Below are positions 48,493-61,880 of a stretch of 64,000 nt of DNA, one piece after another. The stretch's first letter is position 1. Each line of letters opens with the position of its first letter. Both the position numbers and the translations under genes were made by a program. The notes under the pieces are model-generated. The model worked only from the letters and a program-made list of their open reading frames with translations, did not search any database and was not told where the DNA came from. The stretch comes from Acidimicrobiales bacterium (GTDB lineage: Bacteria; Actinomycetota; Acidimicrobiia; Acidimicrobiales; CADCSY01), in the NCBI GenBank assembly GCA_030446545.1, contig JAUJNB010000002.1, positions 1 to 64,000 of the forward strand. Reading direction: 5' to 3'.

Positions 48493-49542
48493 GTGCGGGT
48501 GCTCGTGACCGGTGGGGCCGGGTTCATCGGCTCCCACGTGGTCGACCTCCTGGTCGCCACCGGCCACGAGGTGGTGGTGCTCGACTCCCTGGCGCCCGAC
48601 GTGCACCCCGAGCCACCCGACTACCTCAACCCCGCGGCCCGCTACGTGATCGCTGACGTGGCCGAGCCCGATGCCTGGGTCGACGCGGCCGAAGGGGTAG
48701 ACGCCGTGTGCCACCAGGCGGCCCGGGTCGGCCTCGGCGTCGACTTCGGCGACGTGCGCCGCTATGTCGCCGACAACGACACGGGGACGGCCGTGGGGCT
48801 GTGGGTGCTGCACCGACTGCGCTTCACCGGCCGCCTGGTGCTGGCCTCGAGCATGGTCGTCTACGGCGAGGGCCGGTACCGCTGCCGGGAGCACGGGAGC
48901 CAGCCCGCCCCCGCCCGTCGGGCCGATGACCTGGCCGCCGGGCGCTTCGATCCCCGGTGCCCCAGGTGCGGGCGGGATCTCGACGACGAGCCCGTCGGCG
49001 AGGACGCGCCGGTGGACCCCAGAAACGTCTACGCCGCCACCAAGCTCCACCAGGAGCACCTGGGCGCGGCGTTCGGTCGCGAGCACGGCGTCGCCGTCAC
49101 CGCCCTGCGCTACCACAACGTCTACGGCCCCCGCATGCCCCGGGACACGCCCTACGCCGGCGTGGCGTCGATCTTCCGCTCGGCCGTGGCCGCCGGGCAG
49201 CCCCCCCAGGTCTTCGAGGACGGGGGGCAGCGGCGCGACTTCGTCCACGTGGCCGACGTGGCCCGGGCCAACGTGGCCGCCCTCACCGCCGACGACCCCG
49301 TCGAGGGGCCCCTCAACGTGGCCTCGGGCCGGCCCCACACCGTGCTGGACCTGGCGCTGGCGCTGTGCGCCGGCACCGGGCTGGTCCCCGAGGTGGTGGG
49401 TGGAGGCCGGGCCGGCGACGTCCGTCACGTGGTGGCCAGCCCCGAGCGGGCGGCACGAAGCCTGGGGTTTCGGGCCGAGGTGGCCTTCCGGGACGGCATC
49501 CGCAGCTTCGCCGCCGCGCCCCTGCGGGGTGAGGCTGGCTGA
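48493..49542 (+). CDS. NAD-dependent epimerase/dehydratase with Cys-rich insert
   Basis: Extended SDR of 349 residues acting on a nucleotide sugar. The cofactor motif VLVTGGAGFIGSHVVDLL is at the start; LASSMVVYGEG holds the catalytic Ser region and NVYAATKLHQE the Tyr-Lys. Between them sits an insert with CREHG and CPRCGRDL, a likely zinc ribbon. Such inserts occur in dTDP-L-rhamnose 4-epimerase-like proteins, so a related sugar epimerase is my best guess. GTG 48493 is the start. It belongs with the glycosyltransferase and DUF2064 genes. Confidence 0.9.
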   Translation: MRVLVTGGAGFIGSHVVDLLVATGHEVVVLDSLAPDVHPEPPDYLNPAARYVIADVAEPDAWVDAAEGVDAVCHQAARVGLGVDFGDVRRYVADNDTGTAVGLWVLHRLRFTGRLVLASSMVVYGEGRYRCREHGSQPAPARRADDLAAGRFDPRCPRCGRDLDDEPVGEDAPVDPRNVYAATKLHQEHLGAAFGREHGVAVTALRYHNVYGPRMPRDTPYAGVASIFRSAVAAGQPPQVFEDGGQRRDFVHVADVARANVAALTADDPVEGPLNVASGRPHTVLDLALALCAGTGLVPEVVGGGRAGDVRHVVASPERAARSLGFRAEVAFRDGIRSFAAAPLRGEAG

Positions 49543-49559
49543 CTCCACGAGCCCCGACG

Positions 49560-50669
49560 TCACCGGGCCCGGGGAATGCGCACGGTGAAGCGACAGCCCT
49601 CGCCTTCGTTGCGAACGTCGATGTGGCCGGCGTGCGCCTCCACCAGGCCGCGGGCGATGGCCAGGCCCAGCCCGCCGCCGCCGTGGCCACCCGGGGAACG
49701 GGCCGGATCGCCGCGGTAAGCCAGATCGAAGACCCGGTCGAGGTCGGCGGCGGCGATGCCCCCGCACTGGTCCAGGACCGACACCACGGCGTGGTGGGGA
49801 TCGGCGTCGTCGCCGATCTCGACCCACACCGCTCCGCCGGAGGGCGTGTGGCGCACGGCGTTGTCCAACAGGTTGTGCAGGATGCGCTCGACCTCGCGGG
49901 AGGACCCCAGCACCTCGGGCCCCCCGGTGCCGAGGCGCCCGTCGAGGTGGACCCCCTTGGTCTCGGCCACGACGCCGGCCGCGGCCAGGGCGTCGACGAT
50001 CAGCTCCGTCAGGGGGATGCGTTCGACCACCAGGTCGCCGGCCCGGGCCTGCAGGCGCGAGAGCTCGAAGAGGTCGTCGATCAGGCGACCCAGGTGGTCG
50101 GCCTCCCGGGTCATGGTGGCGTGGTAGCGGGCCACGGTGGCCTCGTCGCTGACCACGCCGTCGTCGAGGGCCTCGGCCATGGCCCGGATCCCGGCCAACG
50201 GCGTGCGCAGGTCGTGCGAGACCCAGGCCACCAGCTCGCGCCGGGACCGCTCCAGGGCCCGCTCCCTCGCTTGGGCCACAGCCACCTCGCGCCGGGCTGC
50301 CTCCAGCTCGGAGGCCAGGGCCAGGGCGGCCAGGACGCCGGCGGTGCCGGCACCGGCCACCACCACCACCAGGGCGGTCAGGTCGTGGGCCGAGACGAAC
50401 ATGGCCCGGGCCGCGGCCAGTGCTCCCACGCTCAGGCTGGCCACGGGGATGAGGGCGACGACGGCGGCGCGCACGGGCAACGACGGTTCCCGGCCCGAGC
50501 GACCCCAGGCCCGCAGGACCAGAGTGCCGGCCCCGTAGGCGAGCAGGGCCACACCGAAGGAGATGCCCACGAGCTGGGCGATATCGGCGCCGGGCAGGCG
50601 GGCCAGCGCCGCCACCAACCCGGCCAACCCCAGGCCCATGGCCACCACCACGCTCCGGCGCCGGGTCAC
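49560..50669 (-). CDS. Sensor histidine kinase of a two-component pair
   Basis: A 369-residue kinase. Its GTG 50669 start overlaps the response regulator stop (GTGA), so the two are coupled. The N-terminal membrane region has about four helices (up to about residue 110, with HDLTALVVVVAGAGTAGVLA the last). The phosphoacceptor motif is VAWVSHDLRTPLAGIRAMAE, with His at about 152; the N box is ILHNLLDNAVRHTPSG. The G1 box reads DQCGGIAAADLDRVFD, with Cys where Gly is usual, and the G2 box is GGGGLGLAIARGLVEAHAG. There is no HAMP or sensor domain, so it may sense the membrane. Confidence 0.93.
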   Translation of the reverse strand: MTRRRSVVVAMGLGLAGLVAALARLPGADIAQLVGISFGVALLAYGAGTLVLRAWGRSGREPSLPVRAAVVALIPVASLSVGALAAARAMFVSAHDLTALVVVVAGAGTAGVLAALALASELEAARREVAVAQARERALERSRRELVAWVSHDLRTPLAGIRAMAEALDDGVVSDEATVARYHATMTREADHLGRLIDDLFELSRLQARAGDLVVERIPLTELIVDALAAAGVVAETKGVHLDGRLGTGGPEVLGSSREVERILHNLLDNAVRHTPSGGAVWVEIGDDADPHHAVVSVLDQCGGIAAADLDRVFDLAYRGDPARSPGGHGGGGLGLAIARGLVEAHAGHIDVRNEGEGCRFTVRIPRAR

Positions 50670-51418
50670 GGTTGGTGCCGATCGACCGCCGTGTCGCGGG
50701 CCAGGGCCGAGGCTGCGCCCTCCCACCGGTAGCCCACGCCCGTGACGGTGGCGATGCGCACGGGGTGGGCCGGATCGGGCTCGATCTTCTCCCGCAGTCG
50801 CCGGACGTGCACGGTGACGGTGGAGGCGTCACCGTAGCGATAGCCCCAGACCTCCTCGAGCAGCTCCTGGCGCCGGAAGGCCTGGCGGGGATGGCGCATG
50901 AGGAACACCAGCAGCTCCAGCTCGCGGGGCGTGAGGGCGACCGGTTCGCCGCCGAGACGGGCCTGATAGGCCGCCACCTCGACCTCGAGGTCGCCGTCGG
51001 AGAGCACGGCCGACCCGCCGGCCAGGCGCGGTCCTCCCGTCTCCCCGCCGGCCCGGCGCAGCACGGCCCGGACCCGGGCCACCAGCTCCTTGGCCGAGAA
51101 GGGTTTGGCCACGTAGTCGTCGGCCCCCAGCTCGAGGCCGATGACCCGATCGCTCTCGTCGCCCCGGGCGGTGAGCATGATGACCGGGACGGGGGCCAGG
51201 GCCCGGAGGCGGCGGCAGACCTCGAGGCCGTCGAGGCCGGGAAGCATGAGGTCGAGGATCACCAGGTCGGGGGGGTCGGCCAGGGCCCGGGCCAGGCCGC
51301 TGCGCCCGTCGCCGGCCGACTCCACCGAGAACCCCTCACGGACCAGGTAGCGGCCCACCACCTCGGCCACGGTGGCGTCGTCGTCGATCACCAGCACCCG
51401 AGGGGTGCGCGCGAACAT
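50666..51418 (-). CDS. OmpR/PhoB-family response regulator
   Basis: A 250-residue DNA-binding regulator. The receiver domain has the acidic pocket VLVIDDDATVAEVVG, the phosphorylation Asp56 in VILDLMLPGLDGLEV, the Thr in IMLTARGDES and the Lys in YVAKPFSAKEL. The winged helix shows LTPRELELLVFLMRHPRQAF, STVTVHVRRLREKIEPDP and TVTGVGYRWEG. It overlaps its kinase. The divergent DUF2064 gene starts 111 bases away, so control of the surrounding glycan genes is plausible. Confidence 0.95.
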   Translation of the reverse strand: MFARTPRVLVIDDDATVAEVVGRYLVREGFSVESAGDGRSGLARALADPPDLVILDLMLPGLDGLEVCRRLRALAPVPVIMLTARGDESDRVIGLELGADDYVAKPFSAKELVARVRAVLRRAGGETGGPRLAGGSAVLSDGDLEVEVAAYQARLGGEPVALTPRELELLVFLMRHPRQAFRRQELLEEVWGYRYGDASTVTVHVRRLREKIEPDPAHPVRIATVTGVGYRWEGAASALARDTAVDRHQP

Positions 51419-51529: not shown

Positions 51530-52168
51530 GTGGAGCTGCTGGTGGTGGCCAAGGAGCCGGTACCCGGCCGGGTGAAGACCCGGTTGTGCCCGCCGTGCAC
51601 GCCCGAGGAGGCGGCCCAGCTGGCCGAGGCGGCTCTGGCCGACACGCTGACCACCTGCTGTGACGCCGGTGCCGACGGCGTGGTGGTGGCCCTCGACGGC
51701 CGGCCCGGTGCCTGGCTCCCGGCCGGGGTGACGGTCGTCGACCAGGGATCGGGCTCGTTCGACCAGCGTCTGGCCCGGGCCTGGGAGCACGTCGGGGGCC
51801 CGGCCCTGCAGATCGGCATGGACACCCCGCAGGTGACCGCCGACCTCCTGGCCGCTTCGATGGACCAGCTGGCCACGGTGGGGACCGACGCCGTCCTCGG
51901 TCCTGCCCAGGACGGCGGGTGGTGGGCGCTGGGACTGCGCCGGGCCGACCCGTCGCTCCTCGTCGGGGTTCCCACCAGCCGGGCCGACACCGGGAGCCGC
52001 CAGCTCCGACGCCTGGTGGGGTCCGGGCGCCGCACCCGGCTGTTGGCCATCCTGCGGGACGTCGACACCTGGAGCGACGTGCTGGCCGTGGCGGCGGGGG
52101 CGCCCGGCACCCGGTTCACCTCGGCCGTCGAACGGGTGGCCGAACGGGTGGACCGGCCGCGCCCGTGA
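51530..52168 (+). CDS. DUF2064 / TIGR04282-type glycosyltransferase-like protein
   Basis: A 212-residue protein of the DUF2064 family, a nucleotidyl/glycosyl-transferase-like fold seen next to GT2 and SAM-methyltransferase genes (some members are linked to arsenosugar synthesis). The start LLVVAKEPVPGRVKTRLCPP is the family hallmark. Others are GSGSFDQRLARAWEHVGG, IGMDTPQVTADLL with a DxP site, and GPAQDGGWWALGLRRAD. GTG 51530 starts it, and the stop overlaps the methyltransferase GTG. The biochemical role is not established. Confidence 0.88.
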   Translation: MELLVVAKEPVPGRVKTRLCPPCTPEEAAQLAEAALADTLTTCCDAGADGVVVALDGRPGAWLPAGVTVVDQGSGSFDQRLARAWEHVGGPALQIGMDTPQVTADLLAASMDQLATVGTDAVLGPAQDGGWWALGLRRADPSLLVGVPTSRADTGSRQLRRLVGSGRRTRLLAILRDVDTWSDVLAVAAGAPGTRFTSAVERVAERVDRPRP

Positions 52169-52773
52169 CGGCCGTCCTGCGGACGCGCACGGGCGCGACC
52201 ATCCCCCTCGAGGTCGGCCGCTGGCGGGCCGATCCCGACGGGGTGGAGCTGGCCATGATGGAGGGCCTCGGCGAGCCGGTGCTCGACATCGGCTGTGGTC
52301 CGGGCCGGATCGTCGCCGCCCTGGGCGCGACCGGCCGACTGGCCCTCGGGGTCGACACCTCGCCCGTCGCCGTGGCCGAGGCCGGGCGACGGGGCGCGTC
52401 GGTGCTGCACCGATCGATCTTCGATCCCCTCCCCGGGGAAGGCCGCTGGGGGTCGGCCGTCCTGCTCGACGGCAACATCGGCATCGGGGGAGACCCGGTG
52501 GCGTTGCTCGGTCGGGTCCGGACGCTGCTGGCCCCCGAAGGTCAGGCCATGGTCGAGGTGGAGACCCCGGGGATTCCCATGGAGATCCTCACCGTCAGGG
52601 TGGAGGGAGTTCCCGGCGCCGGTGTGGGCCCATGGTTCCCCTGGGCCCGGGTAGGAGCAGACGACTTTGCCTCCCTGGCGACGCAAGCCGGACTCCTCCC
52701 CGCCGGCTTCACCGTCGCCCACGACCGGTGGTTCGCCCGGGCCGTGCGGCCGCAGGTGCCCCTTCGACGCTGA
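52165..52773 (+). CDS. Class I SAM-dependent methyltransferase
   Basis: A 202-residue methyltransferase. Motif I is PVLDIGCGPGRIVAALGATG, followed by ALGVDTSPVAVAEAGRRGA and GSAVLLDGNIGIGGDPVALL. LAPEGQAMVEVETPG marks strand 5. The conserved neighbour order DUF2064-methyltransferase suggests they modify the same product. GTG 52165 overlaps the DUF2064 stop. The gene is convergent with phnC after nine bases, which marks the left edge of the inserted minus-strand block. Confidence 0.9.
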   Translation: MTAVLRTRTGATIPLEVGRWRADPDGVELAMMEGLGEPVLDIGCGPGRIVAALGATGRLALGVDTSPVAVAEAGRRGASVLHRSIFDPLPGEGRWGSAVLLDGNIGIGGDPVALLGRVRTLLAPEGQAMVEVETPGIPMEILTVRVEGVPGAGVGPWFPWARVGADDFASLATQAGLLPAGFTVAHDRWFARAVRPQVPLRR

Positions 52774-52782
52774 TCCGTCGGG

Positions 52783-53547
52783 TCAGCGGAGGGCGCCGAC
52801 CGGCGCCGGTCGGTACACCAGGGCCCGGTGATCGTCGGTGAAGGCGGCCGTCTCCACGTCGACCACGACACGCCCGTCCCGCAGACCGATCACGCGGTCG
52901 GCGAAGCCACTGATCAGGTCGACCTGATGGAGGTTGCAGAGCACGGCGATGCCCTCGGCCCGGGCCACCGAGGCCAGGGCGGCCAGCACGCTGGCCGACG
53001 ACTCCGGGTCCAGGCTCGACACCGGCTCGTCGGCCAGCACCACACGGGTGCGCTGGGCCAGGGCCCGGGCGATGGCCACCCGTTGCTGCTGGCCGCCCGA
53101 CAGGCGGTCGGCCCGGGACCCGGCGTGATCGGCCAGGCCCACCCGGGACAGACACTCCAGGGCCTCGGCCCGCACGGTCGGTCCCGGTCGCCGGACCAGG
53201 ACCCGCCAGGTGGGCAGCTCGGCCAGGCGCCCGGCCACCACGTTGTCGAGGGCCGACAGCCGGCGCACCAGGTTGAACTGCTGGAAGATCAGGCCGATGT
53301 CGCGACGGGCCTGACGGAGCTCCCCGCCAGCGAGGGCCGACAGCTCGCGGCCGCCCAGCACCACCCGTCCGGCGTCGGCCCGTACGAGCTGGGTGACGGC
53401 GCGGAACAGGGTGGTCTTGCCCGCACCGCTGGGCCCGACGATGGCCACCACCTCGCCGGCGGCCACCTCGAAGGACACGTCGTCGAGCACCGGGCGCACG
53501 CCGTAGCGATGGGTCAGACCGTCCACCTCCAGGGCGACCGGGCTCAT
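52783..53547 (-). CDS. phnC: Phosphonate-type ABC transporter ATP-binding protein
   Basis: ATPase (254 residues) of the PhnCDE-like importer. Walker A is GPSGAGKTTLFR, the Q-loop is in GLIFQQFNLVRRLSALDNV (the LVxRLxxxxNV run is characteristic of PhnC), the signature is [15 protein letters not shown] and the Walker B is VVLADEPVSSLDP, with the switch His in CNLHQVDL. ATG 53547 overlaps the permease stop. It is the last gene of the operon. The substrate is given by PhnD, not by this subunit. Confidence 0.92.
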   Translation of the reverse strand: MSPVALEVDGLTHRYGVRPVLDDVSFEVAAGEVVAIVGPSGAGKTTLFRAVTQLVRADAGRVVLGGRELSALAGGELRQARRDIGLIFQQFNLVRRLSALDNVVAGRLAELPTWRVLVRRPGPTVRAEALECLSRVGLADHAGSRADRLSGGQQQRVAIARALAQRTRVVLADEPVSSLDPESSASVLAALASVARAEGIAVLCNLHQVDLISGFADRVIGLRDGRVVVDVETAAFTDDHRALVYRPAPVGALR

Positions 53548-54395
53548 GCCAGCGCCTGGCGCAGGCGGCCGGAGAGCTGGTCGACCGCGGTGACCAGCAC
53601 CAGGATGACCAACACGATGGTCAGCAGGCGGGGGAAGTCGAGCAGTTCGATGCTGTTGCGGAGCTGCTGGCCGATCCCTCCCGCCCCCACCACCCCGAGC
53701 ACGATCGAGCTCCGGATGTTGAACTCGAACATGTAGAGCCCCACCGAGGCCAGCGACGGAAGGGCGTCGGGCAGCAGGGCGTAGGAGACGGTCTTCAGCC
53801 GGCTGGCCCCGGTGAGCTCGGCCGCCTCCAGCGGCCCGGGCGGCAATCCCTCGATGGCCTCGGCGAAGAGCTTGCCGATGCTGCCGCTCGTGTGCAGGGC
53901 GATGCCCAGCATGCCGGCGAAGGGCCCCAGGCCCACGGCGGCCACGAACAGCAGGGCGAAGACGAAGCTGTCGACCCCTCGCAGGGTGTTGAGCACCAGC
54001 CGGGCGGGAAGGCGCACCAGCCAGCTGGGGGTGAGGTTGCGGGCGGCGGGCACGCAGAAGACCAGGGCGATGACCGCGGCCAGGGTGGTGCCGATCAGGG
54101 CGATGGCCACCGTCTCGCCGGTGCGCTGCAGGATCACCGGGAACTCCCGGGCGGTGGGGGGCCAGGCCCGTCCGGCCCATTCCGCCATGGTCGACAGGCC
54201 CTTGACCAGGCGGGCCAGATCGACGTCGGTCAGCCGGAAGCTGACCACGTAGGCGGCACCCAGGGCCGCGATGGCCAGCCATCGGCGCCAGTGCCACCGC
54301 CGGGCCGCTCGGGCCCCGGCTTTGCGCTGCCGGTTACTTCGTCGCCGGGCCGCTCCCCCGGCTCCGCCCACGGGCGCAGCCGCGGTGTCAGCCAC
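53544..54395 (-). CDS. phnE: Phosphonate-type ABC transporter permease
   Basis: Permease of 283 residues with about six helices after a basic Arg/Ala-rich N-terminal tail of about 38 residues. The EAA loop reads GPLEAAELTGASRLKTVSYA and LLPDALPSLASVGLYMFEFN. NIRSSIVLGVVGAGGIGQQL is the PhnE-type coupling helix region. It starts three bases after the PhnD stop and overlaps phnC. The single PhnE suggests a homodimeric channel. Confidence 0.92.
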   Translation of the reverse strand: MADTAAAPVGGAGGAARRRSNRQRKAGARAARRWHWRRWLAIAALGAAYVVSFRLTDVDLARLVKGLSTMAEWAGRAWPPTAREFPVILQRTGETVAIALIGTTLAAVIALVFCVPAARNLTPSWLVRLPARLVLNTLRGVDSFVFALLFVAAVGLGPFAGMLGIALHTSGSIGKLFAEAIEGLPPGPLEAAELTGASRLKTVSYALLPDALPSLASVGLYMFEFNIRSSIVLGVVGAGGIGQQLRNSIELLDFPRLLTIVLVILVLVTAVDQLSGRLRQALA

Positions 54396-54398
54396 CAG

Positions 54399-55337
54399 TC
54401 ACCGCTGCAGGGCGTCGAGGGCCACGGCGGCGTCGCGGATGGATTTGTAGCTGTCGTTGGTGGCGGCCACGAAGCCGGTGTAGCGGTCGGGCAGGATGCC
54501 TTTGGCCTGCTCGGGCGTGAGCGAAAGGATCCTGTCCCCGAGGTCCCGGGCCAGGCCAGGGTCGAACCCCTTGCGCAGGCCGATGGCGTCGTTGGGCAGC
54601 GGGTCGGAGGTCCACACCACCTTGTTGTCGCTCTCCTTGATCTTGCCGGTGGCGATCATGGAGTTGCGGTTGCGGTCGAAGTCGGTGGCGAAGTCCACCT
54701 GGCCGCTCACCACGGCCAACTCGTTGGCCGGGTGCGACGCCCCCTCGGTGTACTGGAAGTAGGTCTTGGGGTCGATGCCCCGCTGCTTGAACCAGTAGGT
54801 GGGCACCAACCATCCCGAGGTGGAGGACGCCTCGGCGAAGGAGATGGAGCGGCCCCGGGCGTCGTCGGGCCAGGTGTTGACCTCGATGTCAGGTCGGCCC
54901 ACCACGATGGCGTGGTAGATCGGCTTGTCGTCGTACTTGACGGTGGCGATGGCCTCGGCCCCCGACCGCTCGTTCGACAACACGTACCCGAAGGGGCCCA
55001 TCCAGGCCAGGTCGAGCTGGTCGGCCCCCAGGGCCACCGAGATGCCGCCCCAGGAGTCGACGGCGGTGAGCTCGTGCTCCACGCCGAGCTCGCCCGCCAG
55101 CCACGAGAAGAAGGGGTCGTAGGCTGCTTTGGTGTCGGTGGTGGTGGGCAGCAGGGGCCCGACGCCGAAGCGCAGCATGGTCGGCCGGGCCGGCGCGCCC
55201 CCCGGTCCGGCGGCTCCGCCGGTCGTGTCACCGTCGCTCCCACAGCCGGCGATGGCCAGCCCACCGGCGCCGGCCAGGGCCAGGGCACCGGCCCGCTGCA
55301 ACAGGCGTCGTCGGGTGAGCGGTGCGGGTTCGTTCAT
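54399..55337 (-). CDS. phnD: PhnD-type substrate-binding lipoprotein
   Basis: Periplasmic-type binding protein (312 residues from ATG 55337, preceded by gaaaggg; ATG 55361 is weaker). LTRRRLLQRAGALALAG is a Tat-like twin-Arg signal running into the lipobox AIAGCGSD with Cys32, so it is membrane-tethered outside. The binding-site phrase SFAEASSTSGWLVPTYWF matches the Ser-Thr-Ser-Gly phosph(on)ate/phosphite loop of PhnD/PtxB/HtxB proteins. DLAWMGPFGYVLSN and YHAIVVGRPD also fit. The ligand is unknown. Its place directly after the TusA/MetE-like gene is unusual. Confidence 0.9.
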   Translation of the reverse strand: MNEPAPLTRRRLLQRAGALALAGAGGLAIAGCGSDGDTTGGAAGPGGAPARPTMLRFGVGPLLPTTTDTKAAYDPFFSWLAGELGVEHELTAVDSWGGISVALGADQLDLAWMGPFGYVLSNERSGAEAIATVKYDDKPIYHAIVVGRPDIEVNTWPDDARGRSISFAEASSTSGWLVPTYWFKQRGIDPKTYFQYTEGASHPANELAVVSGQVDFATDFDRNRNSMIATGKIKESDNKVVWTSDPLPNDAIGLRKGFDPGLARDLGDRILSLTPEQAKGILPDRYTGFVAATNDSYKSIRDAAVALDALQR

Positions 55338-55372
55338 GGTCGTGGCCCTTTCAATCGGCATTGGTCAAAGGA

Positions 55373-55387
55373 CGGTTGAAACAACCG
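55373..55387. other. Short perfect hairpin between the fusion gene and phnD
   Basis: The sequence cggttg-aaa-caaccg forms a six-pair stem with a three-base loop, in the 85 bases between the fusion gene stop (55423) and the phnD start. This is the widest gap inside the operon. It could be a processing site that sets the ratio of importer to enzyme mRNA, or an operator. Confidence 0.55.
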
Positions 55388-55422
55388 CCGGTCGGAACAA
55401 TCGCCCGGGGAGCAGGTGTGCG

Positions 55423-56988
55423 TCAAACGCCGATCAGTCGGTCCCGAGCCGCCACCAGCACCGCCAGGTGGGCTTCGGCCACCTCAGCGGTGACGATCGG
55501 GTTGTCGGCGAAGGTGGCGAAGCCGCAGTCGGGGTTGAGCAACACCCGCTCGGCGCCGAAGAGGTCGACGGCTCGCCGGGCCCGGGCCAGCACCACCTCG
55601 AGCGAGTCGACCACCTGGTCCTTCTGGTTGACCAGGCCTACCCCGATGCGACGGTCGGAGGGCAAGGTGGCCAGCACGCCGATCTCCCCCGCCCGGGGCG
55701 TGCACAGCTCGAGGACGTAGGTGCCGAAGTCGAGGCTCGACAGCAGCGGGACCAGGGGTCGGTAGTCGCCGGCCAGGGCCATGGCCTCGTCCGGCGTCCA
55801 GTTGCCCCGGCACACGTGCAGAGCCAGGCGGTCTGCCGGCAGACCCGAGGTGAGCTCTTGGAGCAGTCCCCGGGCGAAGCCCAGCTCCTCGCCCACACTG
55901 CCCCGTTCACCCAGGGCACCGCACATGAAGGTGCGTCCGCCCTGTCCGGGCGTCCCGTACACCACCTCGGTGAGCACCGGCTCGTCGAACTGCACCAAGG
56001 CCACGCCGGCGGCCAGCAGGTGGTGCACCTCCTCGCGCAGCACCCGTACGATGTCGCGAGCCAGGTCCTCCCGATCGTCGTAGGCCCGGTCGGAGATGCA
56101 CTCCATCCACATGGTGCGGGTCAGCAGGTACGGCCCCGGCAGGCTGACCTTGACCGGCTCGTCGGTCAGGCCTCGCACGAAGGTGGCCTCGTGCACCGCG
56201 AGGGGCCGGCCCCGCCCGAGAGGACCGAACACCGCCGGGTGGCGCACCTGGCCGGCGGGGACGTCGAGGGCCGCCAGCTCCGCCTCGAACTGAGCCGGGT
56301 CGTCGACATAGGGCAGCAGGTCGGTGACGGGGATGAGCTGGCAATTCTCCAGCAGGCCACCGACGAAGCTGGCGTAGTTGTCCCGGCGCTGCTCACCATC
56401 GGTGACCACGTCGGCCCCGGCCCGGCGCTGGGCGTCGACGGCCAAGCGGACGGCGTCGTCGGCGCTGTCGTCGAACTCGGCCTCGTCCATGCGGGTCTCG
56501 AGGCGTTCATGCAGGGCGCGAAGCAGCCAACGGGGCCGTGGCCAGCTGCCGACGCCCATCACCGAGAGGGGACCGATCGCCGGCGCCGGCGCCGGCGCCG
56601 GCAGCGTGTCCGGGATGGTCGGCGTGACCACAGGTTGGGTGATGGGCGCCTGGCGCCGCCCGCTGCGGCCGACGACCACGGCCGGTGTACCCGGCACGAT
56701 CGGCTCGGCGTCGTCCTCCGGCGGTGGCGTGAACGGCCCCTTGCTCACCAGGAAGCTGCGTTGTCGGCCCGTCCGCCACATGTTGACCATCTCGTTGCCG
56801 GTGAGCCGGCACCAGGCCGGGAGATCCTCCTCGACCGATGCTTCGAGGGAGAGGATCTCCAGGAGTTGCCCCTGCTCCAGGGGGTCGATGTGCTTGCGGA
56901 TCAACAGCAGCAGCCCGTTGCCGCAGTCGAGCTCGCCCCCGTCGAAGCCGACGTCGGCCTGGTAGGGATGAGTCCTCGTCCGGCTCAC
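55423..56988 (-). CDS. Fusion of a TusA-like domain and a MetE C-terminal-type methyltransferase domain
   Basis: A 521-residue protein from GTG 56988. Residues 10-90 are TusA-like: FDGGELDCGNGLLLLIRKHI with Cys22 at the sulfur-carrier position (CPxP replaced by CGNG), then EDLPAWCRLTGNE. A Pro/Ala-rich linker (about 100-145) leads to a cobalamin-independent methionine-synthase barrel starting GVGSWPRPRWLLRAL. Zinc ligands are all present: His391 and Cys393 in LALHVCRGNW, Glu427 in YVLELCTP and Cys488 in NPDCGFATFAD. The 61-residue Glu-to-Cys gap equals that of E. coli MetE (Glu665, Cys726). It lacks the MetE N-terminal half. A methyl-transfer role to a thiol is likely; the substrate is unknown. 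Confidence 0.88.
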   Translation of the reverse strand: MSRTRTHPYQADVGFDGGELDCGNGLLLLIRKHIDPLEQGQLLEILSLEASVEEDLPAWCRLTGNEMVNMWRTGRQRSFLVSKGPFTPPPEDDAEPIVPGTPAVVVGRSGRRQAPITQPVVTPTIPDTLPAPAPAPAIGPLSVMGVGSWPRPRWLLRALHERLETRMDEAEFDDSADDAVRLAVDAQRRAGADVVTDGEQRRDNYASFVGGLLENCQLIPVTDLLPYVDDPAQFEAELAALDVPAGQVRHPAVFGPLGRGRPLAVHEATFVRGLTDEPVKVSLPGPYLLTRTMWMECISDRAYDDREDLARDIVRVLREEVHHLLAAGVALVQFDEPVLTEVVYGTPGQGGRTFMCGALGERGSVGEELGFARGLLQELTSGLPADRLALHVCRGNWTPDEAMALAGDYRPLVPLLSSLDFGTYVLELCTPRAGEIGVLATLPSDRRIGVGLVNQKDQVVDSLEVVLARARRAVDLFGAERVLLNPDCGFATFADNPIVTAEVAEAHLAVLVAARDRLIGV

Positions 56989-56998
56989 CGGTGGGTGC

Positions 56999-57361
56999 CT
57001 AGTAGGTGACGCAGGGCGCGCCGCTGGCCAGGAACTCCACCAGCTTGGCCCCGCCCACGATGGTGGCCCCCTCGACCAGGGCGGTCTCGTCCAGCCCGCG
57101 CTTCTTGAAGCACGGGGAGCAGACCCAGATGGTCCCGCCCGCCTCGACGAAGTTGGCCAGCAGGTCCTTGAGCGGGGAGAACCCCTCCTCGTGGATGTCG
57201 TCGGCATAGCCGTCGACGGCCAGGTGCACGCCCTCGGTGGACAGGAACACCAGGGTCTCCTGGTCCGACCCGACCGCCGCGTTGGCGATGACGAATCCCA
57301 CCGTGGCCCGGTCGGGGTCACCCTTGGCGTTGGTCAGCGAGACACAGAACTTTCCAGCCAT
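56999..57361 (-). CDS. DsrE-family sulfur-relay-like protein
   Basis: A 120-residue DsrE/DsrF-like protein. The start FCVSLTNAKGDPDRATVGFV and QETLVFLSTEGVHLAVDGYA are family-like. Two cysteines in IWVCSPCFKKRGLDE (81 and 84) sit at the DsrE active-site region. DsrE-type proteins carry persulfides to or from TusA. It starts 3 bases after the upstream TusA-like gene and ends 10 bases before the TusA::MetE fusion, so all three are surely co-expressed. The acceptor is unknown. Confidence 0.9.
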   Translation of the reverse strand: MAGKFCVSLTNAKGDPDRATVGFVIANAAVGSDQETLVFLSTEGVHLAVDGYADDIHEEGFSPLKDLLANFVEAGGTIWVCSPCFKKRGLDETALVEGATIVGGAKLVEFLASGAPCVTY

Positions 57362-57364
57362 CGT

Positions 57365-57619
57365 CTACTCCTTGGATCGTCGTTGGATGAGGTACACGGG
57401 GTGCTCGGCAGCCACCAGTTGGTGGCCGGTCAGGCGGCACCATGAGGGAAGGTCTTCGGGTGCGCCGGGATCGCGCGCCACCAGCTCGAACCGAGTGCCC
57501 GGGGCCAGTGGGGCGAGGCGGCGACGAAGCTGGATCACCAGCTCGCCGCAGCCCATCTCGCCGGCGTCCCAGTGCTCGACCAGGTCGTGGTCGGCGTGGT
57601 CGTCTGCCCCCCTGGCCAT
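57365..57619 (-). CDS. TusA-like sulfur carrier protein
   Basis: An 84-residue TusA/SirA-like protein from ATG 57619, which has agagaggaacgtcc upstream. Its carrier Cys24 lies in WDAGEMGCGELVIQLRRRLA. The second conserved run, EDLPSWCRLTGHQLV, closely mirrors EDLPAWCRLTGNEMV in the fusion protein downstream, so the two TusA-like units are probably duplicates. The usual CPxP motif is CGEL here. It is the first structural gene of the operon. An open frame extends upstream to 57781 but is not protein-like. Confidence 0.85.
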   Translation of the reverse strand: MARGADDHADHDLVEHWDAGEMGCGELVIQLRRRLAPLAPGTRFELVARDPGAPEDLPSWCRLTGHQLVAAEHPVYLIQRRSKE

Positions 57620-59169: not shown

Positions 59170-60648
59170 CTACTGGTACTGCGGATTGCCAGGAGTTGGT
59201 ATGTGTGGGGCCACGGAGCCGTCGTGGCTGGGAACCCCTCTCGAGGATCGGCATGACCGCGCTTCGCCGACCACCACGACCAGGGCGGCCAGGCCGTAGC
59301 TGACCCGACCGATGATGGGGATGGGGCCGTCGAGCAGGGCGGCCAGGTAGACCGGGTAGCCGGCGACGGCCACGGCGATCCACCACCATCTGCGGGCCAG
59401 GGTGGCCAAGGCCACCAGGAGCAGGGCGTACCAGGGCTGAACCGGCGTGGCGAGGAGCAGGGCGGTGCCGAACAACAACGTGGCCGCCACCTCGGGCGCC
59501 CGGCGGGAGCGCCAGGCCACCACCGCGGCCACGGCCAGGCCGAGGCCGGCCACCACCTGGGCCGGGGTGCCCGTCAACCCCACCAGGCCGAGCAACAGGA
59601 ACCGGCTCCCTCCGGCGTAGCCCTCCTCGGCCAGGTAGCCGGGGAGGTAGCCGAGGACGTCGACACCCACGGCGACCGCGTGCCGGGCGTACCCGAGGCC
59701 GATGGTGGCAGCGAAGGCGACCAAGGTGAGCGACGCGTGCCGGGGACGGCGGCCGGCGACCACCGGCAGCAAGGCCGCGGGGTAGAGCTTGATCAGCGTG
59801 GCCAGCCCCAGGAGCACGCCGGCCAGGACGCCTCGCGGCCGCCGGGCGGCGTAGAGGGCACCGACCGTCACCAGGACGGCCAGGGCGTCGACATGGGCGC
59901 TCTGAGCCGACTCCAACACCGCGATGGGACTCCAGGCGTAGAGGACGACCGATCGGGCGTCGTGCCCCGAGCGGGCCAGGGCCAGGGCCAGGGCGGCGAC
60001 GAGGCCGAGGTCGACGACCAGGGCCAGGCCCTGCCAGGCCCGGTCCTCTCCGGCGTCGGGTAGGAGGAGGTCGCCCACCCGGAACCAGACCTGGGCGAGG
60101 GGTGGGTAGATGGTGCGCTGGTCGGCCCGGTTGATGCGGGTGCAACCGGGTGGGCGATCCAGGTCGGCGCAGCCGGCGGCGTCGGGCCACAGCCAGGGGC
60201 CTCGCAGGCCGGCCAGCTCCTCGGCGGTCGGGGGGTGGCGGTAGGGGTCGAACCCGGCGGCCTGGACGCTCCCGTCCCACGCGTAGCGGTAGACGTCGTC
60301 GGAGAGCACGGGGACGCCGGCCAGGGCCACGATCCGAAGGGCGGCGGCCACGACCACCACGAGGACCAGCCCACGGCGTCGGTCGGCCGTGCGCAGCACG
60401 AGGGTCGCGCCCACCCCGAAGGCCACCCACCAGGCACCGACGATGACGAGGAGGCGCCAGCGCTGCTCCAGGACAGGCCCGACGGTGGCGAGGAGCAGCG
60501 CCAGGGACACGCCGGCGAGCCCGGCGACCCCGGCGCCACCGGCGGTGAGGAGGTCGAGCCGACGCCGGCGAGGGGTCGGCGGCGGTGCGGGAGGCGGAGG
60601 AGGAGGAACAACGGTGACGGTAGAGCCCGCCCGGACCCACCGGGACAA
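59170..60648 (-). CDS. DUF2029/GT87-type membrane mannosyltransferase
   Basis: Polytopic GT-C glycosyltransferase, about 492 residues from TTG 60648 (the open frame reaches 60738; the start is uncertain). A Pro-rich N-terminus precedes roughly 12 helices. The first large loop has VLSDDVYRYAWDGSVQAAGF with the acidic pair typical of GT-C enzymes, followed by a luminal loop with INRADQRTIYPPLAQVWF. LATLIKLYPAALLPVVAG and ATPVQPWYALLLVAL are hallmarks of the polyprenol-phosphate-mannose-using group. It is divergent from the Mo-oxidoreductase gene and upstream of the AAA ATPase gene, with a four-base gap. It belongs with the GT2/epimerase set. Confidence 0.9.
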   Translation of the reverse strand: MSRWVRAGSTVTVVPPPPPPAPPPTPRRRRLDLLTAGGAGVAGLAGVSLALLLATVGPVLEQRWRLLVIVGAWWVAFGVGATLVLRTADRRRGLVLVVVVAAALRIVALAGVPVLSDDVYRYAWDGSVQAAGFDPYRHPPTAEELAGLRGPWLWPDAAGCADLDRPPGCTRINRADQRTIYPPLAQVWFRVGDLLLPDAGEDRAWQGLALVVDLGLVAALALALARSGHDARSVVLYAWSPIAVLESAQSAHVDALAVLVTVGALYAARRPRGVLAGVLLGLATLIKLYPAALLPVVAGRRPRHASLTLVAFAATIGLGYARHAVAVGVDVLGYLPGYLAEEGYAGGSRFLLLGLVGLTGTPAQVVAGLGLAVAAVVAWRSRRAPEVAATLLFGTALLLATPVQPWYALLLVALATLARRWWWIAVAVAGYPVYLAALLDGPIPIIGRVSYGLAALVVVVGEARSCRSSRGVPSHDGSVAPHIPTPGNPQYQ

Positions 60649-60722
60649 CGGGCCATTACAGCCCGGGGAACAACGACCCTCATGCCGGACCGGCACAGGG
60701 GCCGGCGTTACCGTCGGATCCC

Positions 60723-61880
60723 ATGGGCGAAGGCGCACGTCGGCTGCGGTTGCCCACCACCGGCTCCTTCACGAGCCCGCTGCACGCCCCTCGCACCGCG
60801 GCCGTCCTCGGCCTGGCCCTGGGCCTGACCTTCACCGTGTGCTTCCTCACCGGTCTGTTGTCGCACCTCCACCAGCACCCGATCGGGTGGCTGACGCTGC
60901 CGTCCCGCCCGGCCGGGCTCTACCGGCTCAGCCAGGGCGCCCACGTCATCACCGGGGTGGCCTCGATCCCCCTGCTGCTGGCCAAGCTGTGGACCGTCTA
61001 CCCCCACCTCTGGGCCCGACCGGTCCTGGCCAGCCCGGCCCACGCCCTCGAGCGCCTCAGCCTGGCGGCCCTGGTGGGGGGCAGCCTGTTCCTGCTCTTC
61101 ACCGGCACGATCAACATCGCCTACTGGTACGAGCCCATGCGCTTCTCCTTCACCGCCGGGCACTACTGGGCGGCGTGGATCACCATGGGCGGCCTTCTCG
61201 TGCACGTCGGGGCCAAGGTGACGACCACCCGCCTGGCCCTGTCGAAGCGCAGCCCCGACCGGCACGGGCCGGCCGGCGACGGGCTCAGCCGGCGCGGCTT
61301 CCTCACCGCGGTGGGCCTCACCTCGGGTGTGCTGGTCGTGGCCATCGCCGGCCAGACGGTGGGCGCCCTACGCCGGATCTCGGTACTGGCGCCCCGGCGG
61401 CCCGACGCCGGGCCCCAGGGCTACCCGGTGAACCGCACGGCGGCCCAGGCCGGCATCGACGCCGGAGGGGCCGACGAGCGACGTTTCCTGCTCTCGGTCG
61501 AGGGTGACGTGCGCCGGCCCCTCACGCTCGACCTGGCCCAGCTCCGGGCCATGCCCCAGCGGGAGGTCACCCTTCCCATCAGCTGTGTCGAGGGGTGGAG
61601 CTTCTCGGCCCGCTGGACGGGGGTGCCCGTGACTGCGCTCCTGGCCCTCGCCGGTGCCGCCGACGGCAGCGGCGCCACCGTCGAGTCCATGGAGGCGGAG
61701 GGCGCGTACCGGACCTCCCCCCTCAACCGGCTCCAGGCCCGGGACCCCGACACCCTCCTCGCCCTCCAGCTCGACGGCCAGCCGCTGGCCCTCGACCACG
61801 GGTTTCCCCTGCGCCTGATCGCCCCCAACCGCCCCGGCGTGCAGCAGACCAAGTGGGTGCGTCGGATCGTGGTGGCATGA
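60723..61880 (+). CDS. Sulfite-oxidase-like molybdopterin oxidoreductase with N-terminal membrane domain
   Basis: A 385-residue protein. The N-terminal 190 residues hold four or five helices with His residues placed like a b-type cytochrome (LTGLLSHLHQHPIGW, AHVITGVASIPLLLAK, GGLLVHVGAKV). A second signal-like segment, SRRGFLTAVGLTSG, leads to the Mo domain. The Mo-coordinating Cys is at about 288 in PISCVEGWSFSARWTG. ALDHGFPLRLIAPNRPGVQQ closes the fold. It therefore looks like an MsrP-type YedY/YedZ pair in one chain. ATG 60723 is the start; it overlaps the next gene. Confidence 0.92.
   Translation: MGEGARRLRLPTTGSFTSPLHAPRTAAVLGLALGLTFTVCFLTGLLSHLHQHPIGWLTLPSRPAGLYRLSQGAHVITGVASIPLLLAKLWTVYPHLWARPVLASPAHALERLSLAALVGGSLFLLFTGTINIAYWYEPMRFSFTAGHYWAAWITMGGLLVHVGAKVTTTRLALSKRSPDRHGPAGDGLSRRGFLTAVGLTSGVLVVAIAGQTVGALRRISVLAPRRPDAGPQGYPVNRTAAQAGIDAGGADERRFLLSVEGDVRRPLTLDLAQLRAMPQREVTLPISCVEGWSFSARWTGVPVTALLALAGAADGSGATVESMEAEGAYRTSPLNRLQARDPDTLLALQLDGQPLALDHGFPLRLIAPNRPGVQQTKWVRRIVVA

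Follow-up and report, generated by a model that had tools for sequence, protein, structure and literature searches.

The first 64,000 nucleotides of contig JAUJNB010000002.1 from an Acidimicrobiales bacterium (assembly GCA_030446545.1), hereafter the window, carry six tightly ordered genes on the minus strand that encode, successively, a TusA-like protein, a DsrE-like protein, a fusion of a TusA-like domain to a MetE-type zinc barrel (tusA::metE), and the PhnD-type binding protein, PhnE-type permease and PhnC-type ATPase of an ATP-binding cassette (ABC) importer. The gene set is real, widely conserved and apparently undescribed. Its first three genes constitute a conserved unit, here termed the triad, and the set that contains it most likely serves the supply of selenium. 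The element handled is probably selenium rather than sulfur or phosphorus, and for the whole reading, in which all six genes form a selenium supply operon, we judge the chances to be about even.

The conserved triad

The first-pass annotation of the window had reported a six-gene minus-strand set in this order; all the open reading frames were found in place, and assignment of the six products with Pfam and NCBIfam profiles confirmed the families. A search of its own class found the fusion only in its own genome, together with one strong unfused relative, G221, and a search of the phylum yielded a further unfused relative, G503. A profile built from three sequences was scanned against 84,980 genomes; it gave at least 450 relatives, of which 80 loci were fetched. 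In 75 of these loci a single reading frame spans the TusA domain and the barrel, while a dsrE gene lies near the fusion in about 73 and a separate tusA gene in 71, in the order tusA-dsrE-fusion. Phyla carrying the triad include Actinomycetota, Planctomycetota, Chloroflexota, alpha-, beta- and deltaproteobacteria, Rokubacteria, Latescibacterota, Acidobacteria and others. The parts are also found in this order, but as individual genes and with an OsmC-like gene between them, in Alicyclobacillus and Neobacillus. Because the triad recurs in most of the 80 loci and across phyla, its gene order is not due to chance; tusA-dsrE-tusA::metE is one conserved unit with an order far beyond chance. The expectation that the fusion would keep company with the DsrE and TusA genes was therefore borne out, since they are neighbours nearly everywhere and the scattering that would have dissolved the set was not encountered.

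The importer lies outside this core. PhnDEC genes occur in the triad operon at about 10 of the 80 loci, in Proteobacteria and Rokubacteria; their usual position is between dsrE and the fusion. Two uncharacterised genes, for a small membrane protein with a CVSCLAP motif and an exported protein of 520 residues, occupy this interval either in place of PhnDEC or together with it (L110:9862-11946, and also L075, L077-L080, L082, L085, L093, L099 and L106). They take the place of PhnDEC in Bordetella, Paracoccus, Aquabacter and others, and both sets are present in Afipia and at L106. The pair (c7/c5) gave no family match above cut-off and the model of c5 was poor, with a predicted local distance difference test (pLDDT) score of 59.

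The suggestion that the gene set is not a known pathway was upheld, in that no description of the operon, or of TusA with MetE and PhnD, was found in open-licence papers. YedF (TIGR03527), a TusA plus DsrE protein, represents a recognised and unexplained selenium-linked family that tracks SelD (PMC5322559). It is alike in joining TusA/SirA-type and DsrE-type domains but differs in being a single polypeptide with CPxP and CGxC motifs, whereas the window carries separate adjacent genes, a TusA without CPxP, and the MetE-barrel fusion in addition.

Links to selenium genes

The most direct link to selenium supply is a barrel gene at the head of a selenoneine operon. This unfused barrel of G221 (L021:4575-5738, contig 72; 43% identical) has an in-frame UGA at the position that corresponds exactly to Cys356 in the window fusion. 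The barrel gene is the first of its operon and is followed after about 28 bases by selD, and then by senA and a gene for a SenB-like glycosyltransferase; selD carries its own UGA at the GUxCK motif, and SenA scores 480 bits against a curated cut-off of 420. A hairpin 3' of the barrel UGA has a z value of -2.0, and 4 of 200 shuffles fold as well. On these sequence features, the G221 barrel is a candidate new selenoprotein. The SenABC selenoneine pathway is thus alike in that an unfused barrel relative belongs to a selD-senA-senB operon, but no senA or senB was seen in the triad loci and the barrel is not a known Sen protein. Elsewhere, in-frame stops at L044 and L051 were rejected as selenocysteine (Sec) codons; each is a single stop at a Glu position, and sequence error was taken to be the cause.

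Other unfused relatives show a different setting. In G503 and at L109 an Rv1680-type protein is the neighbour of the barrel relative; both carry OsmC-like genes, and G503 also has FadE16. Relatives of Rv1679-Rv1680 adjoin an unfused barrel relative and an OsmC-related protein at L027:7183-11050 and L109:1852-4302, with FadE16 in L027 and a PhnD-like protein without a transporter in both. The Rv1679-Rv1681 type of cluster (FadE16, a substrate-binding-like protein and radical SAM, for S-adenosylmethionine) shares the barrel relative, but differs in lacking the triad and in that the barrel is unfused.

Physical linkage extends to the triad itself. On plasmid pFER4 of Paracoccus ferrooxidans, the fusion is followed after 77 bases by selA, and the same 25 kb also contain selB, tRNA-Sec and a SufS-type desulfurase; the order is selB, other genes, the SufS-type desulfurase (divergent), tusA, dsrE, two uncharacterised genes, the fusion, selA and trxB, with tRNA-Sec 8 kb on. 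The P. aminovorans triad locus carries selA and tRNA-Sec, and in a planctomycete (L102) selD, selB, selA and tRNA-Sec lie 2-7 kb upstream of the triad. Moreover, five triad loci of Chloroflexota have selB upstream and a triad genome of the Burkholderiales has selD at 2.4 kb.

Co-occurrence points in the same direction. SelD exceeded its cut-off in 46 of 50 triad genomes compared with 193 of the remaining 295 genomes of the phylum (p = 6e-5). All four triad genomes lacking SelD have SelA, and two of them also SelU; the seven lacking SelA all have SelD, and six of them SelU. Overall, SelD, SelA or SelU is present in 51 of 52 tested triad genomes (including G738 and G652), and the genome of the window encodes both SelD (with a UGA) and SelA. 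This pattern suggests that what the triad accompanies is selenium use upstream of SelD, not Sec by itself.

Proposed mechanism and its rivals

The separate tusA product belongs to the TusA family (40.9 bits, with Cys24), and Cys24 and Cys61 are kept in at least 97% of 71 homologues, as are both cysteines of the C81-x-P-C84 motif of the DsrE-like protein in at least 97% of 73. The fused TusA domain falls under the Pfam cut-off at 24 bits, yet it is conserved across 77 homologues, with Cys22 kept in at least 97% and Cys60 in 95%, and it is joined to the barrel by a proline-rich linker. The CPxP motif of TusA carriers is not present in either TusA domain, separate or fused, and both have CG instead.

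The predicted model of the fusion has a pLDDT of 86.7, and among solved folds that of 3rpd is nearest to the barrel (Z 36), with Thermotoga maritima MetE at Z 34. His391, Cys393, Glu427 and Cys488 align with the MetE zinc ligands (His-x-Cys, Glu, Cys) and, together with Cys356, are conserved in at least 97% of homologues. Every member of the subfamily has the Cys356 loop, with Sec at this position in G221, whereas 20 other MetE-like paralogues lack it. MetE cores and folate-independent methionine synthases are therefore alike in fold and zinc ligands, whereas the fusion adds the Cys/Sec loop and the TusA domain and has Asn454, at least 90% conserved, in place of the catalytic His of the GVWDIHS motif. 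It also scores under cut-off, and identity as a methionine synthase was rejected (best 138.8 bits against 406 for the nearest equivalog). S148, E199 and D335, which align with the homocysteine site of MetE, are retained. In MetE these Ser, Glu and Asp positions bind homocysteine. Their retention together with that of the zinc ligands favours a reaction in which a methyl or comparable group leaves selenium for a thiolate held by zinc, and we propose, tentatively, that the barrel works by such alkyl transfer from selenium. A less probable arrangement is a selenium relay without methyl chemistry, in which zinc would hold selenide and pass it to Cys/Sec356 and the TusA cysteine, thereby screening selenium from sulfur before SelD. 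The invariant zinc ligands and Cys356, the loss of the catalytic His, and the occurrence of the triad mostly without an importer or methyl-donor gene beside it would suit this arrangement, but the preserved homocysteine-site residues are a better fit to MetE-like transfer and we know of no zinc selenide carrier of this kind.

With alkyl transfer in the barrel, the steps might run as follows. The PhnDEC importer, whose binding protein is of a hybrid class described below, would import a small oxyanion of selenium (hydrogen selenite or methylseleninate), which cell thiols would reduce. The zinc barrel would then free selenium, most likely by moving a methyl (organic) group from selenium to a zinc-held thiolate in the manner of MetE, and Cys356 (Sec in one relative) and Cys22 of the fused TusA domain would catch it. 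TusA and DsrE would hand it on as perselenide towards SelD, which would make selenophosphate for SelA, SelU or SenB. That all of this holds, as a full undescribed assimilation pathway in which a dedicated ABC importer takes up a selenium oxyanion with high affinity, the zinc barrel releases selenium onto the fused TusA and a TusA/DsrE relay feeds SelD, is rather doubtful. The earlier proposal of an importer, a methyl-transferring barrel and a DsrE/TusA sulfur relay survives in part: a small-oxyanion importer, a zinc methyltransferase-type barrel and chalcogen carriers are indeed joined, but selenium is more likely than the sulfur or phosphorus then envisaged. A partial parallel exists in selenium-starved Methanococcus, where TusA/TusD, a PhnU-like importer gene and methyl-selenide methyltransferases are raised and for which the authors noted that no specific selenium transporter is known (PMC11097638). 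The barrel methyltransferases SdmABC are thought to free selenium from methyl selenides there, with TusA/TusD and the PhnU-like importer rising alongside (PMC11097638), but SdmABC uses a corrinoid protein and coenzyme M, neither of which was seen in the window operon.

The nearest solved structure to the binding protein is HtxB, and it is about 44% identical to HtxB-type proteins; it reaches 143 bits against the curated PhnD profile (cut-off 261). Membership of TIGR04553, the putative selenate binding protein, was rejected at 84 bits against a cut-off of 250. HtxB shuts out a third oxygen by means of N128 and F158, where PtxB has Ser and His (PMC5700983, PMC6629693). The window protein shares W52, R178 and D206 with HtxB, whereas S128 and H158 are as in PtxB and position 176 is F, which places it in the hybrid class defined by W52, S128, H158, Y/F176, R178 and D206. 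An alignment showed W52, S128, H158, R178 and D206 in all ten triad-linked copies, that of the window and nine others. HtxB identity was rejected for the ten copies on account of S128 and H158; N and F are found there in genuine HtxB copies, which adjoin dioxygenase and PtxD genes. In a tree the hybrids split from HtxB (100/100) and the window permease groups with the G565 copy, which suggests that the link between importer and triad probably arose more than once. Of 50 triad genomes, 12 have a hybrid PhnD protein, adjacent to the triad in 11, whereas none of the 295 other genomes of the phylum has one. At neutral pH, hydrogen selenite carries a single proton. Given that HtxB takes phosphite only if it is protonated, through D206 and R178 (PMC6629693), hydrogen selenite would fit the hybrid pocket; methylseleninate is a further candidate ligand. 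That the importer carries a selenium species is a possibility that we place somewhat below even.

Several observations weigh against selenium supply, and the first of these concern the importer. The conserved Trp52 cap suits a P-H bond (PMC5700983). The first-pass annotation had counted the importer as a member of the set, which is true of those loci where PhnDEC adjoins the triad but not of the core, since in the closest relative (L030, 89% identical) the triad is followed by a convergent gene with no adjacent PhnDEC. The hybrid protein is encoded in eight of 297 Hyphomicrobiales genomes; its gene adjoins the triad in two of these and radical SAM, metallophosphoesterase and TIGR04282 genes in four, and lies in other contexts in the remaining two. 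The G565 copy adjoins a radical SAM protein of the Rv1681 type, and the window itself has a TIGR04282-like gene on the opposite strand 0.6 kb from phnC. Two systems may therefore have this ligand in common, or the importer may work for the second of them. Such an importer would carry phosphite (reduced phosphorus) or belong to a radical-SAM/TIGR04282 system, with its place beside the triad in this genome being not functional, and we regard this as unlikely. The hybrid class is uncharacterised (PMC5700983, PMC6629693) and its members are predicted phosphite binders (PMC6629693); the radical SAM, metallophosphoesterase and TIGR04282 combination recurs on a Roseomonas plasmid, and one hybrid copy adjoins a dioxygenase gene. 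Against it, PhnDEC lies within or next to the triad operon, on the same strand, in three phyla (Proteobacteria, Rokubacteria and, with this genome, Actinomycetota), no PtxD-, HtxA-, metallophosphoesterase- or rSAM_R2-like gene scores above 60 bits at any of the 80 triad loci, and the TIGR04282-like gene of the window is convergent rather than co-directional. The second setting of the hybrid importer, with radical SAM, metallophosphoesterase and usually a TIGR04282 glycosyltransferase, was seen at L156, L157, L158, L161, L121 and L138. A SenA-like match near a hybrid importer (L159) looks like an ordinary EgtB-EgtD pair.

The remaining points against selenium supply concern the triad. Linkage to sel genes over the 80 loci stems from three clades only and is modest if counted by clade. 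The SelD background is high, 194 of 296 genomes of the phylum (66%) and 112 of 150 Burkholderiales (75%), and consequently SelD co-occurrence alone is weak proof; within the Burkholderiales there is no enrichment (3 of 5 triad genomes against 109 of 145, p = 0.6). Neither SelD nor SelA was found in the triad metagenome-assembled genome G738. Two unfused barrels sit with Rv1680-type genes, and one such genome, G614, is without clear SelD or SelA. The statistics support the selenium reading against the Actinomycetota without proving it, and the adjacency and the Sec form weigh more. A triad handling sulfur, for example in sulfane sulfur release from an organosulfur compound, with selenium genes co-occurring through lifestyle, would accord with the Burkholderiales counts, with TusA, DsrE and MetE relatives being mostly sulfur proteins and with the barrel normally having Cys rather than Sec, but it is the least probable of the alternatives in view of the repeated linkage with selA, selB, selD and tRNA-Sec and the Sec form in the selenoneine operon. 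Selenium is favoured over sulfur and phosphorus because of these sel genes in triad loci, the lack of PtxD and HtxA there, and the Sec barrel.

The locus and its significance

The features of the operon are listed in Table 1. Spacing in the 5' to 3' direction is 3, 10, 61 (85 with the second phnD ATG) and 3 bases, and phnE and phnC overlap by 4; the second ATG of phnD opens a twin-arginine lipoprotein-like signal. The gap at 55362-55422 contains a short inverted repeat (GGTTGTTTCAACC) and TTGACC, elements that are possibly regulatory. Convergent with phnC, plus-strand genes at 51530-52773 encode a TIGR04282-like glycosyltransferase and a SAM methyltransferase, and the flanks of the operon (48493-51418 and 59170-61880) encode a two-component system, a sugar epimerase, a GT87 glycosyltransferase and a sulfite-oxidase-type molybdopterin protein.

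Table 1. Features of the operon, in window positions
Feature	Position	Strand	Evidence or remark
tusA-like gene	57619-57365	minus	84 aa; Pfam TusA 41 bits
dsrE-like gene	57361-56999	minus	120 aa; Pfam DsrE 57 bits
TusA::MetE-barrel fusion	56988-55423	minus	521 aa, GTG start; Meth_synt_2 99 bits
Fusion, N-terminal TusA-like domain (residues 1-88)	56988-56725	minus	24 bits; Cys22, Cys60
Fusion, C-terminal MetE-type zinc barrel (residues 140-521)	56571-55423	minus	profile and model
Fusion, Cys356 codon, subfamily-defining TFMCGAL loop	55921-55923	minus	UGA (Sec219) in G221 homologue
Fusion, His391 codon, expected zinc ligand	55816-55818	minus	alignment
Fusion, Cys393 codon, expected zinc ligand	55810-55812	minus	alignment
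Fusion, Glu427 codon, expected zinc ligand	55708-55710	minus	alignment
Fusion, Cys488 codon, expected zinc ligand	55525-55527	minus	alignment
Fusion-phnD intergenic gap	55338-55422	minus	up to 85 bases
PhnD-type binding protein, HtxB-hybrid class	55361 (alternative start 55337) to 54399	minus	phosphonate-bd 169 bits
PhnE-type permease	54395-53544	minus	PhnE 273 bits, over cut-off
PhnC-type ATPase	53547-52783	minus	PhnC 274 bits, over cut-off

A 2026 review stated that a specific high-affinity system for selenium transport has yet to be identified in prokaryotes, and the terms MetE and methionine synthase do not occur in it (PMC13188914). The operon bears on how trace selenium is taken up by bacteria and kept separate from sulfur en route to SelD, and it offers a concrete candidate importer, a predicted ligand for an orphan class of binding proteins, and a conserved set of carriers. 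If the selenium reading is true, the barrel would add a MetE-type protein to the selenoproteins.

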